Shown: positions 2,493 through 13,517, numbered from the stretch's first letter. The stretch: DNA of 64,000 nucleotides from an uncultured Pirellulaceae bacterium (GCA_905480545.1 CAJQQR010000078.1:1-64000), one strand, 5' to 3'. A program made the numbers and translations. The notes: generated by a model not told the origin, from the sequence alone.

Positions 2493-2613
2493 CCAAACGA
2501 CGATGGGGACTGGAAAAAATCGATGGATAGATGGATAACGATAGCTCGTCGCATCCGGTTCTGATGCGGCGTTGTATTTGTTTCCATGGCCTGATGTTGG
2601 CGAAAGATCACCC

Positions 2614-3408
2614 TTGCTCCAAATTAAAGTCGGCGTTCACCTCGCCAGTTTAAGACAGCCGTTCAAGAAAGCGTTAGAGACTGCTGCTCGAATCGGTGCA
2701 GATGCCGTCGAGATCGACGCACGAAATCATATCAAACCATCGGAAATGACACGAACCGCGGTTCGTCACCTTCACAAAAAACTCAGTGACCTAAACTTGA
2801 ACGTTTCGGCGGTGACTTTCCAAACGCGACGCTCCTATTCGGACATTGATGGCATTGAGCGACGCGTTGACGCCACGAAAGCCGCGATGAAGATGGCATA
2901 CGATCTTGGTTGTCATGTAGTCGTCAATCAAATCGGAAAAGTCCCAGAACGTCCTGCAGAGGATGCAGAATCAATCGAACGCGATCTTTTAATTGCAACG
3001 CTGTCGGAAATCGGGAAAGAATCGCAGCGAGTCGGCGCGTTCCTTGCCGCTCGAACCGGGACCGAAGATGGCCCTACGATGTTGGACTTGATCGACGATT
3101 TGCCCACCGGATCCCTCGTTGTTGATTTTGACCCTGGCAACCTAATCATCAACGGATTCTCTTCTGCCGAAGCGATTAAATCACTGGGCAAGTTTGTTCA
3201 GCATGTTCATGCTCGTGACGGGGTTCAGGATCTCGCCCAGGGGCGCGGCATTGAAGTACCACTCGGACGCGGCTCAGCGGACTTTCCGAATTTGCTGGGG
3301 AATCTTGAAGAACACCAATATCACGGTTACTTAACCGTCCAGCGTGATCACGCCGAGGATCCCATTTCAGAAGTCGCAAATGCAATCGAGTTCTTGAAGA
3401 ATATCTGA
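2614..3408 (+). CDS. Sugar phosphate isomerase/epimerase-like TIM-barrel protein
   Basis: This is a member of the xylose isomerase-like/AP endonuclease 2 TIM-barrel superfamily. It begins with the usual strand (KVGVHLASLRQPFKKALETA). It then shows an early acidic site (GADAVEIDARN), a central strand VVDFDPGNLIINGFS, the segment FVQHVHARDGV, and the late strand GYLTVQRD, which are the positions where metal ligands normally sit. The frame has no ATG near its start. TTG codons occur at 2572 and 2614. I prefer 2614 because it starts just before the first barrel strand, but an extra 14 residues cannot be excluded. The substrate is unknown. Homologues are numerous in planctomycetes and often act on oxidised or rare sugars. 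Confidence 0.75.
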   Translation: MLQIKVGVHLASLRQPFKKALETAARIGADAVEIDARNHIKPSEMTRTAVRHLHKKLSDLNLNVSAVTFQTRRSYSDIDGIERRVDATKAAMKMAYDLGCHVVVNQIGKVPERPAEDAESIERDLLIATLSEIGKESQRVGAFLAARTGTEDGPTMLDLIDDLPTGSLVVDFDPGNLIINGFSSAEAIKSLGKFVQHVHARDGVQDLAQGRGIEVPLGRGSADFPNLLGNLEEHQYHGYLTVQRDHAEDPISEVANAIEFLKNI

Positions 3409-5583: not shown

Positions 5584-6567
5584 CTATGTCGACTTGAACC
5601 ACTGTCCCAACATGATAGCTGGGAATAGCAGCACCAATACGACGAAGGCGAATTGATACTGCTCTGGATCAACCCAGAAACATAGCGCCGCGTTTATCAA
5701 GATCAGCGAAAGAATGCATTGCTTAATCGTCATTTGCACGTGACGCGGAGTCGGATCGGCAATCGCTACCAATGACAAACGAACGACACTCAAACCGATC
5801 GCGCCGATAATGAACGGCAACAACCAGATTTTTGTCGCCGTTGCTGGCAAAGTTAGCCCGTAAAATGGCATACCCGCAATGAGCAGCAAGCCGACAACCA
5901 TAACGACAAACCCAAACGTCAATAGTTTGATGTCGCTTTCCTTTGCCTCGCTGCGAGCGAACCACGTAAACCCCGCAACAAAAACTCCGACCCCCAACGC
6001 GATCATCAAACCCGCCGGAATCAAGCCTGCGTTCGCCGAACCAATCAGACTCATTCCCAAAAGAATGTTCAGAAATCGGCAACCGCCCATCGCAATTGGT
6101 GCAACGGGCGTCTTCTTCAATATTTTGTTGTAGAGAAAGATTGCCGCGACCAACAATATCGCAATGATCGCCGGCTCGAAACTTGTAAGTAACTTTTCTT
6201 CGGCAAAAAAGAAATAGCTGGTGATTGCGCATCCGACGCCCGTAAATATCAACGTGTAACTTAGAATGGTCGCGAACTGAAGCGATACGGCACCCGACGG
6301 AATCGGTCGCTCTGGTCGTTCAACGGAATCGATTTCCACATCGAACACATCGTTCAAGATCATTCCCGCTGAATACAAGCAGCATGTCGCTGCGCATAAA
6401 AAAAGCAATCCTCCCAACGGTTCAAAGCTTTGATGCATAAACACAAAGCCCATCATCACATCAGCAACCGCCGTAAAGATATTAGGAATCCGCATCAGTC
6501 GAAAAATTGATTTTACAAACGACTGCGTCCGGTTGTTTTTTTCTTTTGAATCGTCGATTTTATTCAC
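5584..6567 (-). CDS. UbiA-family prenyltransferase
   Basis: The protein is 327 residues with about nine hydrophobic segments. The first Asp-rich UbiA motif is clear at residues ~72-88 (NDVFDVEIDSVERPERP); D73, D76 and D80 are the likely magnesium-diphosphate ligands. It is followed by IPSG, as in the EboC-like branch of the family. A second polar site, RSEAKESD, appears near two thirds of the length, where the second Asp-rich motif normally lies. The enzyme should transfer a prenyl chain to an aromatic or other acceptor at the inner membrane. No other ebo, menaquinone or ubiquinone gene is nearby, so the acceptor is unknown. It converges on the decayed methyltransferase remnant. Confidence 0.82.
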   Translation of the reverse strand: MNKIDDSKEKNNRTQSFVKSIFRLMRIPNIFTAVADVMMGFVFMHQSFEPLGGLLFLCAATCCLYSAGMILNDVFDVEIDSVERPERPIPSGAVSLQFATILSYTLIFTGVGCAITSYFFFAEEKLLTSFEPAIIAILLVAAIFLYNKILKKTPVAPIAMGGCRFLNILLGMSLIGSANAGLIPAGLMIALGVGVFVAGFTWFARSEAKESDIKLLTFGFVVMVVGLLLIAGMPFYGLTLPATATKIWLLPFIIGAIGLSVVRLSLVAIADPTPRHVQMTIKQCILSLILINAALCFWVDPEQYQFAFVVLVLLFPAIMLGQWFKST

Positions 6568-7223: not shown

Positions 7224-9938
7224 ATGACGATTTCTCAGACTAGGCAAAGTTTTCCGTTTATGGAAAGTGATGCGCCTGCATCATTTGCCTCGCCAATCTT
7301 AAGCATGCATCAGCAAGGAAGCAATTTCATGCAAGCACCACCAGCAACACCTGTTACAAGTCAAGACAATACCCCGCGAACCAAAACTGGAACTCTAGGT
7401 TCGGTGATGGGATCGTTAGGTTGGCCGGTCATTATCGGCCTGGTTGCCTATTGGGGATTTCTGTTTTTGATTCAGCAAGGCTGGATCAAAAGTGAAATGT
7501 TGGTCCGATACCTGTCGGCCCATCCGGTTTCTTATGTTGCGACCGCCATGTTCTTTGTGGGTGGCGTGGGGCTAATTATCAAACTAATTGATGTACTGCG
7601 TCAAATTGGGGACCAAAAGAATGTTTGTCTTCAGCCTGCACCCGCTCTTGGCCAGCGGGCAGATGCAAGCCGCATGTTGCTAGCAGATTTGGATGAACTC
7701 TCACCAGCACGCCAAGATTCATACCTTGGACTCCGGCTGCGAAATGCATTGGAATTCGTAGATAAAACCGAGTCGGCAAACGGACTAGATGATGAGTTGA
7801 AGTACTTGGCCGATATGGACGCCGCCAAGCAGCAAGAGAGTTACTCGCTGATTCGGATATTAATTTGGGCGATCCCAATGCTGGGATTTCTGGGCACTGT
7901 AGTTGGAATTTCGGGAGCCCTTGGCGGTTTGACCGTCGCTTCGGATTTTGAAGCGATGCTCTCAGGCCTCCGTGACAAACTTTACGTCGCGTTTGATACG
8001 ACGGCGCTTGCACTCACATTATCAATTGTGCTGATGTTTGCTCAATTCATCGTCAATCGAATTGAGACCCAGCACCTGGACGCCGTCGACGAGGCAGCAA
8101 TAGACGAATTGGTGGGACGTTTTGAGACGTTTGGAACCAATCGCGATCCCTATTTGTCATCCGTCGAAAATATGTCGCGAAAAGTCCTCCAAAGCGTCGG
8201 GGCAATTGCGGATGAACAGGCTGGGGTCTGGGCATCAGGAATTGAAACGATCCGTCAGACGACCGAAGGTGTTTTGGATCGATTTGCAGACGTTCTTGCG
8301 ACTCGACTTTCGAATCAGCTTGAGCCTGTCATGGATGAGTTTGGAATTGCAATTCGAAATGCGATCGCCGATTCAAACATTGTGATGGAATCTCACACTC
8401 GGAATTTATCAAAAGCGGTCGAAGCATCTTCCAATGCATTTGCCAGTCACGGTCAATTTATTGGGGCTGCAATGAGTGAGCAGTCCAAAGCCTATCACTC
8501 AACCATTCAACAGCATGGCGATGAACTCAAAGTCATGATGTCTCAATCGAATAAATTAGCAGCTGGACACACGGAAAAACTTTTGGCCGGATTGGAGCAA
8601 ACCGAGGGCGTTTTGCAGACCCAATCGGAGCAAATGGCCGATGCTTCGGCCCATCATCTGGAGAATCTCAAAACCATCATTTCCCAGTCCGATGAAGTCT
8701 TGATCGCGCATGCAGAAAAGGTCACTCAGAGAATGGATCAAGCTACCGACATTGTTCTCAATCAAGCAAAGCAACTCCACGAAGGCATAGCGAATGCGAA
8801 TCAAGTCCTCGAGTCCAATACCAATTCGGTGCATCATTCAATCGAGCAGGGCAATCTATTAATTGCTAGTCATACCGAAAGAATCAAAGAAGTCATTGCC
8901 GTTTCATCCGATGTCATGAATGATCACGCCAGCAAAATCAGCGATGCCGTAACACGCAGCGAAGAGATTGTCGACAAACGACAAGAGTCAATCGCCAAGA
9001 CCCAGGAATCGATGTTGCGGGCTCAAACACAACAGGCGATGGCTATTACGCAATTCACCGAAAAGCTTGAAGACCTGCAAGAGGCAGTTGAGCAAGCCAA
9101 TTCGATGAATCAGATGCAGGAGAGTTTAAAGAAGAGCATCGATAGCCTTACCGAATCAGACTCTCTGATCAAAGAAGTGAAGGGCTTGGCAAGAGTGGTT
9201 CGCGAATCAGTAACTGAATCGAACGAACAGCAGTCCGATGGACAAAAACAGTCACAACGCAATCTTGAAGTGATCGCTAACCAGATTCAAGCGGTCTTTG
9301 GCGAAAACGCCAAAATGCTAACGGCATACCAGAAGAAACAGGATGAGCTAATCACCGCAACGATGCAAATGCATAAGTCAATGGACAAATCTGAGGATAA
9401 CCGGCACATCGTCGAGGGCCTTTCGCGAAACTTTACGGCACTTGGAAAGCAGATTGCAATGCAGCAAGAGTCACTGCAGGACTTGGCCCAGCAAATTCCA
9501 CAAAACATGAAAATGGATGAGCATGTTGAGCAATTGAAGAACGCAATCCAAGCCGTTGCAAAGAACTCTTCTTCCGCAATTAAATCAGATCCAATCGTCG
9601 CGAAACTGGATAAACTGCAGGATAGTCTCACGAAGCCAAATCCGTTCCAACAACAGTTCCTGGCTCAGCAAAAACAGACGGTCGATAATCAGAACCGCTT
9701 ACTGGAATTTTGCCAAACGCTAGAAGGAAAAAATCGCACCCAGTTTCTGGATTCGGCGAAAAGCGTGTTAGCGCAGCACTCCGAGGCTTTGGAGGAAGCG
9801 GCCAAGCTTGAAGAAACGGTTCGAAACCTAACTTTTTCCGTCAACTTGTTGAACCAGTCCTTAAGCACAGAAACAAACAAAGCCGTCGAATTGTCCAACC
9901 AGCTTAATCAGCCTGAAATTCCGAAACGTGTTGCATGA
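7224..9938 (+). CDS. Giant MotA/TolQ/ExbB-like channel protein with long helical tail
   Basis: This 904-residue protein has an N-terminal membrane part and a very long cytoplasmic tail. Hydrophobic segments lie near residues 65-86, 102-124, 209-232 and 256-280. The last two carry the MotA/TolQ/ExbB signature: a Pro/Gly-rich span (IPMLGFLGTVVGISGAL) followed by a span with a paired Thr (FDTTALALTLSIVL). Residues ~300-900 are Gln/Glu/Lys-rich and predicted helical. A loose repeat runs through about 395-590, in which short blocks begin with His and read like HTEKLLAGL, HAEKVTQRM and HTERIKEVI. Family members use ion flow to drive a partner. The tail is far longer than in ExbB or TolQ and recalls ZorA. 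The stop overlaps the next start as ATGA. Confidence 0.85.
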   Translation: MTISQTRQSFPFMESDAPASFASPILSMHQQGSNFMQAPPATPVTSQDNTPRTKTGTLGSVMGSLGWPVIIGLVAYWGFLFLIQQGWIKSEMLVRYLSAHPVSYVATAMFFVGGVGLIIKLIDVLRQIGDQKNVCLQPAPALGQRADASRMLLADLDELSPARQDSYLGLRLRNALEFVDKTESANGLDDELKYLADMDAAKQQESYSLIRILIWAIPMLGFLGTVVGISGALGGLTVASDFEAMLSGLRDKLYVAFDTTALALTLSIVLMFAQFIVNRIETQHLDAVDEAAIDELVGRFETFGTNRDPYLSSVENMSRKVLQSVGAIADEQAGVWASGIETIRQTTEGVLDRFADVLATRLSNQLEPVMDEFGIAIRNAIADSNIVMESHTRNLSKAVEASSNAFASHGQFIGAAMSEQSKAYHSTIQQHGDELKVMMSQSNKLAAGHTEKLLAGLEQTEGVLQTQSEQMADASAHHLENLKTIISQSDEVLIAHAEKVTQRMDQATDIVLNQAKQLHEGIANANQVLESNTNSVHHSIEQGNLLIASHTERIKEVIAVSSDVMNDHASKISDAVTRSEEIVDKRQESIAKTQESMLRAQTQQAMAITQFTEKLEDLQEAVEQANSMNQMQESLKKSIDSLTESDSLIKEVKGLARVVRESVTESNEQQSDGQKQSQRNLEVIANQIQAVFGENAKMLTAYQKKQDELITATMQMHKSMDKSEDNRHIVEGLSRNFTALGKQIAMQQESLQDLAQQIPQNMKMDEHVEQLKNAIQAVAKNSSSAIKSDPIVAKLDKLQDSLTKPNPFQQQFLAQQKQTVDNQNRLLEFCQTLEGKNRTQFLDSAKSVLAQHSEALEEAAKLEETVRNLTFSVNLLNQSLSTETNKAVELSNQLNQPEIPKRVA

Positions 9939-11707
9939 GTAGAAGATCCTCTCAGCAAAATCAAACCGCTCCAACGCTGTTTCCGTTCCTCGCCGTGCTG
10001 ATTTGTACGATGGGTGCGATCATTGTGCTATTGGTTTTGGTTGTCAAAAGAGCCGACATTCAAGCGAATCAATCGGAGCAAACTGTTTCAGCCGAAGAAA
10101 TCGCCGAACAGAAACAGCAGCTCGTCGACAAGCTTGAGTTTAGCAAAAACAACATACAATTGTTGGGCAGCCTACGCCCGCAATTGAAAGAACGGCTCGA
10201 ATCTGAAAAAGCACTCTACGGTCACCTTACCAGCCACATCGCCGAGCTTGCTAACGAGTTGACGCAATTAAAAAAACAACTGCAAACAATAGCTTCGAAT
10301 GATACAAGCGACGTTGACCAGGACAAGTTAAAGCGGCAGCTAACTCAATTGACGAAAAAAATCGACGAAGAAACACAAAAGTTGGCCAAAAAACGGAATA
10401 TTGCAGAGAATCAAAAACAGACCTTCGCCATTATTCCACACGCGACCGGAGGCAACGGAACGTTTCGCCGTCCCATTTTTGTGGAATGCGACGGGGATGG
10501 AGTGACCGTTCAGCCCTACGGAATTACACTTCGGGCCAGCGATTTCCCCAACCCCATATCTGCCGGGAATCCACTGGATGCCGCCCTGGTAATGATTCGC
10601 GATTATTGGAATCAAATCGATCCGAATCATAAAGAAGGTCAGCCGTATCCGCTATTTGTCGTCAGGCCAAGTGGTTCCAAATCATTTGCGGCAGGGCGTA
10701 AAGCAATGAAGTCTTGGGTGGATGAATTTGGTTATGAACTGGTCAACACCGACGTCGAAATTGCGTATCCGAAAACGGATGAAGCATTCAAGAGTCAGCT
10801 TGTTTCCGCGGTCAACTTGGCCCGTCAACGTCAGCAAGCTACGATCGCAGCGATCAATCGCACTCAGGCTATGCGGCAAATCCGACAATTAGAAAACGGA
10901 TCGGGACAGGGCGCTGGATCGGGTGGTGGTGCCTCTGGCGGAGGTTATCGTGCGTCATCAATCACCGGTGGATTCGTCCGTGAACCAAGAGGGAGTAAAA
11001 CCTCCGGCCAATTGAATGGCAACTCAAGTTTCGCATCGTCGAAGCGGTCAGCCTCAGGTTCCACATCCGACAATTCGCTCGACAAGTACGAATCGAACAG
11101 TTCACAAATTAGTCGGAGCTCAAAATTCGGTACAAACCCCTCGGGGCAACCTTCAGATCGAAATTCCCAATTCGACGAGAATCGTAATTCTTCGTTTGGT
11201 GAACCGCAAAATAACAGGAACCTGAGTGGGCAACCCAATCAAGCTTCGGAAAACCTTGCGTCGAATTCAAATCAAAACAACTCAAATCAAAACAACTCAG
11301 GACCGGGTGGAAATTCAAGTTCCGCCAGCGGCCAGACCGGCGGTGACGAACTTCCCCAGGAGAGCATTGCTCGAGCTCGCGGTAACAATTGGGCGCTTCC
11401 ATCAAAAGCCAGCAATTCGATCCAAATTCGAAAGCCCATCAAAATCCTGGTCAACGATAACGAAATCCAAATCGTCGAAATTGGAAAGGGCATCAAGTCG
11501 ATTTCGTTTGCCAATGGAAGCGAGACAGCTGTTCCAGTTTTGGTTGAACAAGTCTGGCAACATATCGATGCTTGGGGAATCGCCGGTGTCAATTCCTACT
11601 GGAAACCAATCCTGAACGTTTACGTTTCACCAAACGCGGATGGGCGGTTTCTGGAATTGAAAAACCTTCTTTCTGGCAGCGGCCTCGATCTACGGAGAGT
11701 CCAATGA
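9935..11707 (+). CDS. Single-pass ExbD/MotB-like protein with duplicated module
   Basis: The 590-residue product has one hydrophobic segment at about 15-38 (LFPFLAVLICTMGAIIVLLV) after a short basic start, giving an Nin-Cout single-pass topology. Residues ~40-160 are coiled coil. A globular region at ~165-285 contains VRPSGSKSFAAGRKAMKSW. A Ser/Asn/Gly/Gln-rich linker covers ~320-482. The C-terminal ~100 residues contain VSPNADGRFLELKNLLSGSG. The two globular parts share a pattern of a beta strand ending in a Pro-polar turn, then Phe-xx-Leu/Met-Lys and a helix, as if duplicated. Unlike ExbD or MotB, its membrane span has no acidic residue. It overlaps its neighbours by ATGA on both sides. Confidence 0.8.
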   Translation: MSRRSSQQNQTAPTLFPFLAVLICTMGAIIVLLVLVVKRADIQANQSEQTVSAEEIAEQKQQLVDKLEFSKNNIQLLGSLRPQLKERLESEKALYGHLTSHIAELANELTQLKKQLQTIASNDTSDVDQDKLKRQLTQLTKKIDEETQKLAKKRNIAENQKQTFAIIPHATGGNGTFRRPIFVECDGDGVTVQPYGITLRASDFPNPISAGNPLDAALVMIRDYWNQIDPNHKEGQPYPLFVVRPSGSKSFAAGRKAMKSWVDEFGYELVNTDVEIAYPKTDEAFKSQLVSAVNLARQRQQATIAAINRTQAMRQIRQLENGSGQGAGSGGGASGGGYRASSITGGFVREPRGSKTSGQLNGNSSFASSKRSASGSTSDNSLDKYESNSSQISRSSKFGTNPSGQPSDRNSQFDENRNSSFGEPQNNRNLSGQPNQASENLASNSNQNNSNQNNSGPGGNSSSASGQTGGDELPQESIARARGNNWALPSKASNSIQIRKPIKILVNDNEIQIVEIGKGIKSISFANGSETAVPVLVEQVWQHIDAWGIAGVNSYWKPILNVYVSPNADGRFLELKNLLSGSGLDLRRVQ

Positions 11708-12741
11708 AGCCAAGGTATGGGCGTCGCGAGGTCGACAACTCACTTGAACCGGGACAAGATTCATTTTTGGACGTTGTCGCAAATCTCGTTGGTATTTTAA
11801 TCATTTTGGTGGTTTTGATTGGATCACAAGCCAAATCTGTTTGGGAGAAATTGCGAACTGATGAAGAAGGTCCCAACGCCGAAATGGCTGCGTTGGAAAC
11901 GGAAATTGAGAAACGAGACCTTGAAACCACCAAACTGAAATCGGAAAACGTTCAAATCGAGTCCATGATCAAGACCCAAAAGAACGCCGCGAAAATCCTG
12001 ACATCAGATCGCGACCGATTGCAACTGGCCGTCTCCGCTGTAAGACAGTCCATTGAAGCACGCCAAAGCGAGCTCTCGCATTCCGAGCAAGAGAATTTAT
12101 CGTTGATCAGTCAGGGTGAACGACTTAAAGCCAAATTGGAGTCTTTAGAAAGTCAAAACCAGAGCCTTCAGTTCAACGCCGCACCGCCCGGAGTGATCGA
12201 CCACTTGCCCACGCCGATTGCCAAAACCGTATTCGGCGAAGAGATTCACTATCGTTTGATGGAGGGAAAGTTAGTCGCTGTCCCGCTTGATAGCCTTGTG
12301 GAATCGATGCGGTCTGAGTGGAAAGTCAAGGCAGCAAAATTGACTCAAGCTCAGTCGACGATCGAAACCGTCGGGCCGATCGACAACTTTCGACTGCAAT
12401 ACAAACTGGTCCTGAAAGAACAGACGCAGAAAACTGAGTTTGGTGTCGTTCGTGCCATGGTGCCTGCATTGGAACGTTTCATTCTGTTGCCCACACAAGA
12501 TCAAATTGGGGAATCAATGCGCAACGCCTTGGAGCCTAATTCGCAATTTATGCAGTCCATCAACGGGCTGGATCCAAATGAAGTTACGATCAGCGTTTGG
12601 GTTTACCCCGATTCGTTTGGATACTTCAATGAATTGAAACGGGTTCTCTACGACAAGGGTTTTCTTTGCGCCGGCTGGCCATTACCCGAGGGGCAGCCAA
12701 TTTCGGGTAGTCCCAATGGGTTTCGAACTGCCGCGCAATAA
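11704..12741 (+). CDS. Second single-pass ExbD/MotB-like protein with membrane Asp
   Basis: The ATG at 11704 overlaps the previous stop, giving 345 residues. The frame is open further upstream, but that part lies inside the preceding gene. Residues 21-40 form a single membrane span that starts with an Asp (FLDVVANLVGILIILVVLIG, D23). This is the position of the essential proton-carrying Asp in ExbD/TolR and MotB. A coiled coil follows at ~45-160. The C-terminal globular part includes ISVWVYPDSFGYFNELKRVL, which matches the modules in the preceding protein. It probably forms the stator partner of the channel protein, with D23 the only obvious ion-carrying residue in the two partner proteins. 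This is inference from layout, not from any known homologue function. Confidence 0.8.
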   Translation: MKPRYGRREVDNSLEPGQDSFLDVVANLVGILIILVVLIGSQAKSVWEKLRTDEEGPNAEMAALETEIEKRDLETTKLKSENVQIESMIKTQKNAAKILTSDRDRLQLAVSAVRQSIEARQSELSHSEQENLSLISQGERLKAKLESLESQNQSLQFNAAPPGVIDHLPTPIAKTVFGEEIHYRLMEGKLVAVPLDSLVESMRSEWKVKAAKLTQAQSTIETVGPIDNFRLQYKLVLKEQTQKTEFGVVRAMVPALERFILLPTQDQIGESMRNALEPNSQFMQSINGLDPNEVTISVWVYPDSFGYFNELKRVLYDKGFLCAGWPLPEGQPISGSPNGFRTAAQ

Positions 12742-13031: not shown

Positions 13032-13517
13032 TTGCGTTTCGACGTGAAATCTAAAAAACCAAAGCCGAACAGAAACATTACGCGTATCGATTTCAAAAAC
13101 AAGAAGGGTGAAATCGCAAGTGGCGGTTGGGAGGTAAGATTTCACCGCCGAGGCAAGAAGATCGAGAAGTTTTTTGCCGACAACAAGCTTGGTAGCCGAA
13201 ACAAGGCTTTAACCGAAGCGAAGAAGTTTCGCGACAAAACCGAGTTGAAATTACCGAAGTATTCCGTGCAGGAACTTGCGAAGAAGCCGTCAAAACGCAA
13301 CAAATCTGGGCACGTTGGCGTACGGCGTCATGAGCAAACTGATATTCGAGGCGAATGGGGTTACACCTACGCCTTTTGGGTCGCTCAATGGACCGATGAA
13401 AATGGAAAACGAAGAACTAAGTCATTTTCTGCCAATCAGTACGGCGAAGATGGTGCTTTCGAAATGGCGATCAAAGCCCGCAAAAAAGGGATGGCCGAGC
13501 GGAAAAAGAATTCATAA
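13032..13517 (+). CDS. Protein with two AP2/ERF-like DNA-binding domains
   Basis: The 161-residue basic protein starts with TTG; no ATG is available. Residues ~18-67 and ~93-155 look like two AP2-type three-stranded sheet plus helix units. The second is clearest: SGHVGVRRHEQTD, then YAFWVAQWTDENGKRRTKSF, then a helix with FEMAIKARKKG. Bacterial AP2 domains are usually found in homing endonucleases or phage integrases, but here no HNH or recombinase catalytic domain is present. The protein is thus probably a small DNA-binding protein or a domesticated remnant of a mobile endonuclease. It is downstream of the ExbB-like operon by 290 bases and is followed by tandem repeats and a bidirectional terminator. 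Confidence 0.6.
   Translation: MRFDVKSKKPKPNRNITRIDFKNKKGEIASGGWEVRFHRRGKKIEKFFADNKLGSRNKALTEAKKFRDKTELKLPKYSVQELAKKPSKRNKSGHVGVRRHEQTDIRGEWGYTYAFWVAQWTDENGKRRTKSFSANQYGEDGAFEMAIKARKKGMAERKKNS

Follow-up and report, generated by a model that had tools for sequence, protein, structure and literature searches.

The three overlapping genes analysed here very probably encode an ion-driven membrane motor of most Planctomycetia. They occupy positions 7224-12741 of the window, a stretch of 64,000 nucleotides from an uncultured Pirellulaceae bacterium, over whose full length all coordinates are counted. The initial annotation had described three genes joined by ATGA, and the corresponding open reading frames, with overlaps at 9935-9938 and 11704-11707, were found as follows:

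7224..9938, + strand: g1, 904 aa, MotA/TolQ/ExbB-type channel subunit (PF01618 match and orthologue alignment A4)
9935..11707, + strand: g2, 590 aa, Asp-less ExbD/TolR-like partner
11704..12741, + strand: g3, 345 aa, Asp-bearing single-span partner
9935..9938, + strand: g1/g2 stop/start overlap, ATGA in 90 of 110 loci
11704..11707, + strand: g2/g3 stop/start overlap, ATGA in 42 of 110 loci

Since g3 was recovered in 59 of 60 related genomes, the genes stand together in the order g1-g2-g3 in 108 of 110 complete loci and the ATGA at the g1/g2 junction is so often kept, the operon is not a product of chance, with the locus counts read as counts of sequences and not of independent events. The search across planctomycetes that had been suggested along with the initial annotation revealed the operon to be class-wide, the g3 profile A2 finding matches in 200 of the 248 genomes of the class Planctomycetia. 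A phylum-wide draw gave matches in 40 of 294 genomes, 19 of which, apart from the window's own genome, belong to the class; matches beyond the class were all either weak or to paralogues. A scan of named genomes yielded 80 loci, nearly all of them from named planctomycetes.

The surroundings of the operon recur as well. Downstream on the other strand lie gatB, gatA and gatC, and upstream a UbiA-type protein is encoded; the neighbours in the window itself are UbiA, DUF1501, AP2, DUF1549 and similar proteins, of which the following bear on the locus:

2572-3408: xylose-isomerase-like protein, near the UbiA-type protein; relatives recur upstream of the operon
5584-6567: UbiA-type protein, near the xylose-isomerase-like protein; relatives recur upstream of the operon
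13032-13517: AP2-domain protein (PF00847, 37 bits)

In 18 loci, a small gene resembling the AP2 gene of the window sits immediately downstream of the operon on the same strand. The pair of UbiA-type and xylose-isomerase-like proteins is perhaps an ebo-type cluster. Neither the window neighbours nor the recurrent neighbours include TolA/TonB, TolB or Pal, there is no vWA or TPR gene among the recurrent neighbours, and no partner protein was found to be encoded next to the operon. Given its wide distribution, kept gene order and recurring flanks, the operon has the appearance of a core locus that is inherited vertically and stays at a conserved chromosomal site. It was not described in the literature searched, the coverage of which was incomplete, and the main text of a paper on essential genes of Planctopirus limnophila (PMC10632474) does not name it.

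The product of g1 had been assigned spans of the MotA/TolQ/ExbB type, and this assignment is substantiated by the Pfam profile search, in which residues 174-282 matched PF01618 (MotA_ExbB) at 37.3 bits, with a cut-off of 22.9, and by two invariant threonines in the channel region. In a genome-wide search the same protein scored 42.7 bits against this profile. By inspection, four hydrophobic spans were placed at about residues 66-86, 104-126, 206-236 and 254-282. PDB sequence searches with g1 and g3 returned nothing useful. The genome from which the window derives encodes seven other PF01618 proteins, including flagellar MotA and ordinary ExbB/ExbD sets, and the operon hence constitutes an additional system. 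Two further planctomycete types of the operon, B and C, form g1 clades separate from type A. The relevant sites and regions of g1 are:

7896..7898, + strand: Thr225, in the GFLGT motif; invariant in alignment A4
7995..8003, + strand: Asp258-Thr259-Thr260, in the AFDTT motif; Thr260 invariant in A4, Asp258 nearly so (replaced by Asn in a few orthologues)
8091..9935, + strand: cytoplasmic tail of about 614 aa, coiled-coil-like, of genus-specific length
9807..9851, + strand: conserved motif near the tip of the tail, LEETVRNLTFSVNLL in the window and with the consensus FEDTVMSLSAAIHLL in many orthologues

A giant tail of roughly 600 residues had been taken as a hallmark of the system. The tail is present, and with a hydrophobic periodicity of 3.66 close to the membrane and about 3.5 farther out it resembles a coiled coil. 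As a defining part of the machine it had to be rejected, being the extension of one genus: g1 comprises 904 and 824 aa in the window's own genus and mostly 440-560 aa among the other orthologues, and the region after the last span measures 614 aa in the window, 552 aa in a sister genome and mostly about 200-290 aa elsewhere. As the length varies between lineages, with the motif near the end and a terminal Ala-Ala common to many orthologues, the tail resembles a spacer of variable length that ends in a tip, and the giant size is no feature of the system. The Ala-Ala ending itself (window 9925-9938) occurs in 95 of 110 orthologues and may partly be a by-product of the GCATGA overlap.

The third gene encodes the partner that carries the candidate ion-binding residue, with the following features:

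11761..11829, + strand: single span of g3 with the DSFLDxxxNxVGIL motif
11770..11772, + strand: Asp23 of g3, without exception in loci that have g1
12235..12738, + strand: periplasmic domain of g3, residues 178-345; pLDDT mostly above 90, kept without g1 in family f111

The earlier description of one span starting with D23 at the place of the ExbD/MotB-type Asp agrees with the single N-terminal span and the invariance of this residue; together with D19 and N27 it is invariant in alignments A1 and A2. Since the scan of named genomes had relied on motif patterns, we rechecked the conservation of Asp and Asn in loci obtained by whole-protein or profile search and found both Asp23 and Asn27 in all complete type-A and type-B g3 proteins. 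Three odd rows in this recheck, read by eye, were parsing errors or a contig end, and L209 reads DSFTDVVTN. The refuting outcome named in the initial annotation, a lack of conservation of D23 and the paired channel threonine in homologues, did not occur: Thr225 and Thr260 are invariant in A4, and all intact type-A orthologues examined that still have g1 carry D23. In the predicted structure of g3 (mean pLDDT 87), the span leads into an extended coiled coil, which is followed by an alpha/beta domain in the periplasm, residues 178-345. In a VIA-align comparison this model matched no ExbD structure; the coiled coils and alpha/beta folds that were listed are unrelated and stayed below Z 6.5. Foldseek returned nothing at E <= 0.001 for either model, g2 or g3, TolR 5by4 appearing only at rank 18 for g2. 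Likewise, g2 and g3 matched no ExbD/TolR profile in Pfam and NCBIfam, nor anything beyond coiled-coil noise.

Judged by its sequence, g2 is a second, Asp-less ExbD/TolR-like subunit, which had been overlooked in the initial annotation. Its parts are:

9977..10045, + strand: single span of g2, LFPFLAVLICTMGAIIVLLVLVV
9992..9994, + strand: Ala20, at the place of the ExbD-type Asp (D23-A20 in the profile alignment)
10442..10804, + strand: periplasmic domain in the middle of g2, residues 170-290, of which the C-terminal domain is a repeat
10916..11347, + strand: low-complexity linker, mostly pLDDT < 50
11396..11704, + strand: C-terminal domain with an ExbD/TolR-like fold match, tied with other folds

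The one N-terminal span of g2 is homologous to that of g3: a profile comparison of the two proteins pairs D23 with A20 and G30 with G27 (probability 96.7, E 4.6e-10, coiled coil included), and the spans alone still align with a probability of 68 and an E of 4.8e-5. At the place of the Asp, 107 type-A loci have Ala (102), Thr (3) or Ser (2), and three further loci (L081, L238, L239) have Asp. These three belong to one clade in g1, where position 258 is Asn (L249 being the g1 of the genome of L081). Sequence comparison thus makes an Asp-less partner the rule in types A and B, with one clade nested in type A, subtype A2, having Asp. A co-variation of g1 Asp258 with this g2 residue in many lineages was considered and weakened, as g2 Asp coincides with g1 Asn in the one clade only (L238, L239, L249); g1 Asn258 also occurs together with g2 Ala in L179 and L186. 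In the predicted structure of g2 (pLDDT 76), the span is followed by a coiled coil, the middle domain, a disordered linker at residues 352-471 and the C-terminal domain. The middle and C-terminal domains are related (hhalign probability 90, E 1.7e-6), and the predicted C-terminal domain resembles ExbD 8p9r (Z 6.6, 71 aligned residues, rmsd 2.6) and TolR 5by4 (Z 5.9). Since uS11 ribosomal proteins score about the same, this likeness of fold supports the kinship with ExbD/TolR and does not prove it.

We consider it likely that the three proteins make up a motor of the MotA/TolQ/ExbB kind that sits in the inner membrane and is powered by ions, in which g1 provides the ring, g2 and g3 a heterodimeric axle and Asp23 the ion carrier, and which acts on a target in the envelope. 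The ring-and-axle mechanism is drawn by analogy from MotAB, ExbBD, TolQR and ZorAB (PMC11890865, PMC12204202). Accordingly worded by analogy, g1 would assemble into a pentameric ring enclosing a two-helix axle made of one g2 and one g3, and from this we infer a 5:(1+1) stoichiometry. The N termini of the axle would reside inside the cell, and its coiled coils and ExbD/TolR-like domains in the periplasm. Ions would cross by binding to Asp23 of g3 within a ring of g1 threonines, while g2 would fill the second place in the axle without an Asp, usually with Ala. The resulting rotation or rocking of the axle would then move the periplasmic g2-g3 pair against the envelope target.

The axle might also be a homodimer of g3 alone, with g2 as an accessory envelope protein docked beside the ring in the manner of TolA or TonB. 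This arrangement would suit a protein that has no Asp but additional domains and an extended linker, and transducers of the TolA and TonB type do bind the outside of the ring (PMC12204202). We nevertheless regard it as unlikely, because the homology between the g2 span and the axle span of g3 makes the former more than a hydrophobic anchor, because subtype A2 (L081, L238, L239) has an Asp at exactly that place in g2, and because in the related type-C operons both partners carry an Asp.

Family f111, in which the channel is missing, offers a natural control that speaks for this mechanism. A g1 profile search over 61 genomes (19 with the operon, 33 of f111, eight of f112 and G164) gave 216-380 bits in the 19 operon-bearing genomes, whereas none of the 33 f111 genomes exceeded 140 bits; in the eight f112 genomes and G164, all of which lack g3, the type-A g1 is absent as well. 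The reading of f111 loci was limited to 11, and in all of these the periplasmic part of g3 is kept (179-211 bits, from about profile position 53) and the DxxxN helix is not intact, an unrelated anchor taking its place except in L223, where the helix is kept as ESYLGILGNLVGLL, with Gly for Asp. In nine of the 11 loci g2 adjoins g3 and has a changed span. Since g1 is absent from f111 and the DxxxN helix is lost or changed there, Asp23 is tied to the channel. The joint loss of g1 and Asp23 probably goes back to a single event on the tree and therefore counts once. Since the g2-g3 pair persists in f111 without g1, its periplasmic portion is useful without a motor, and the conservation pattern together with this lineage points to the periplasmic pair as an output side.

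The retention of the periplasmic parts in f111 without g1 and without the Asp would fit a structural tether of the envelope, in which g1 serves as a regulator or assembly scaffold and the periplasmic g2-g3 pair does the main job. Outside f111, however, neither Asp23 nor Asn27 nor the ring threonines vary across the class, a constancy that a passive scaffold would not need, and we hold a tether to be improbable. A g1-like protein of about 430-510 aa with an AFDST motif also exists in f111 (L242-L248, L253), with no g2 or g3 adjoining. It (L242-L248) was considered as a candidate for a relocated g1, but the tree places it with another type (support 0.83), outside type A, and it is probably a different gene.

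Under the motor reading, a more specific proposal can be made, which we offer tentatively. The axle may be an obligate heterodimer with one ion-carrying Asp, and a single Asp in a ring of five would predict five steps of 72 degrees per turn rather than ten of 36; Asp258 of g1 or the Asp-less subunit might then serve direction or gating, and the output pair might be uncouplable from the motor in evolution, as in f111.

A Zorya-like anti-phage machine with its effectors elsewhere or replaced is very improbable: g1 is tailed and resembles the ZorA profile weakly (2.8e-5 and 1.6e-4, in part over the coiled coil), but PADLOC finds no ZorB match and Pfam no OmpA-type peptidoglycan-binding domain in g2 or g3, ZorC/D/E-like genes are absent from the window and recurrent neighbours, as already noted for the window by the initial annotation, tail length is not conserved, and the near-universal vertical retention at a fixed site is unlike that of patchy defence genes. 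With ZorAB (PMC11890865) the operon shares a ring protein with a long cytoplasmic tail and a single-span, Asp-bearing partner; having neither the ZorB-type domain nor effector genes, and being a core rather than an accessory gene set with a tail of variable length, it is not Zorya.

When compared to ExbB-ExbD and TolQ-TolR, the operon has in common the PF01618 channel, a single-span partner with a PFxD/SFLD-type Asp at the start of the span, an N-in topology (by inspection) and the g2 C-terminal domain resembling the periplasmic domains of ExbD/TolR, a fold tied with uS11. It differs in its two dissimilar partners, one of them Asp-less, in the long periplasmic coiled coils and extra domains, in the four-span g1 with a cytoplasmic tail and in having no TonB, TolA, TolB or Pal gene nearby. 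From the PVC group, a TolQ-like gene accompanied by two unlike TolR-like genes has been described beside vWA and TPR genes (PMC12204202); the present operon shares with this cluster its occurrence in planctomycetes and the combination of a TolQ-like channel with two dissimilar TolR-like partners. It differs in having an Asp-less partner, which the consulted part of that report does not describe, in its standing as a core locus of the class and in the lack of recurrent vWA/TPR neighbours.

How motors of the 5:2 kind use both Asp residues of a symmetric axle is an open question. Ready-made comparisons are at hand in the proposed single-Asp axle kept over a whole class, in subtype A2, which has regained a second Asp and has Asp258 of g1 changed to Asn, and in f111, which lost channel and Asp together. 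Planctomycetia have an unusual envelope and an unusual mode of division, and a core envelope motor in most of them would be a good candidate for a missing envelope or division function.

Among the planctomycete paralogues, types B (L087-L098, L256) and C (L252, L254) have the three-gene layout of the operon, with a channel, an LFxF-type partner and a D-bearing partner. In type B, g2 carries Ser and g3 reads DSLLDTMTN (motifs LFPFLSVLACVIG / DSLLDTMTNVVGIL), and type C has Asp in both partners and AFETT in g1 (motifs LFAFQDIIMSTIGV / LLLDTICNTFGGIL). The flagellar stator MotAB likewise combines a four-span channel protein with an Asp-bearing single-span partner; in contrast to it, g2 and g3 have no OmpA-like domain, and a flagellar MotA with two MotB-like genes is encoded separately in the genome of the window. 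These lie on contig C43 (L002:1204-3357), where the flagellar-type MotA is followed by the two MotB-like genes, a heterologous axle pair in which both members have an Asp in the span (MTYSDVITLLM and LISFGDTMTALL).
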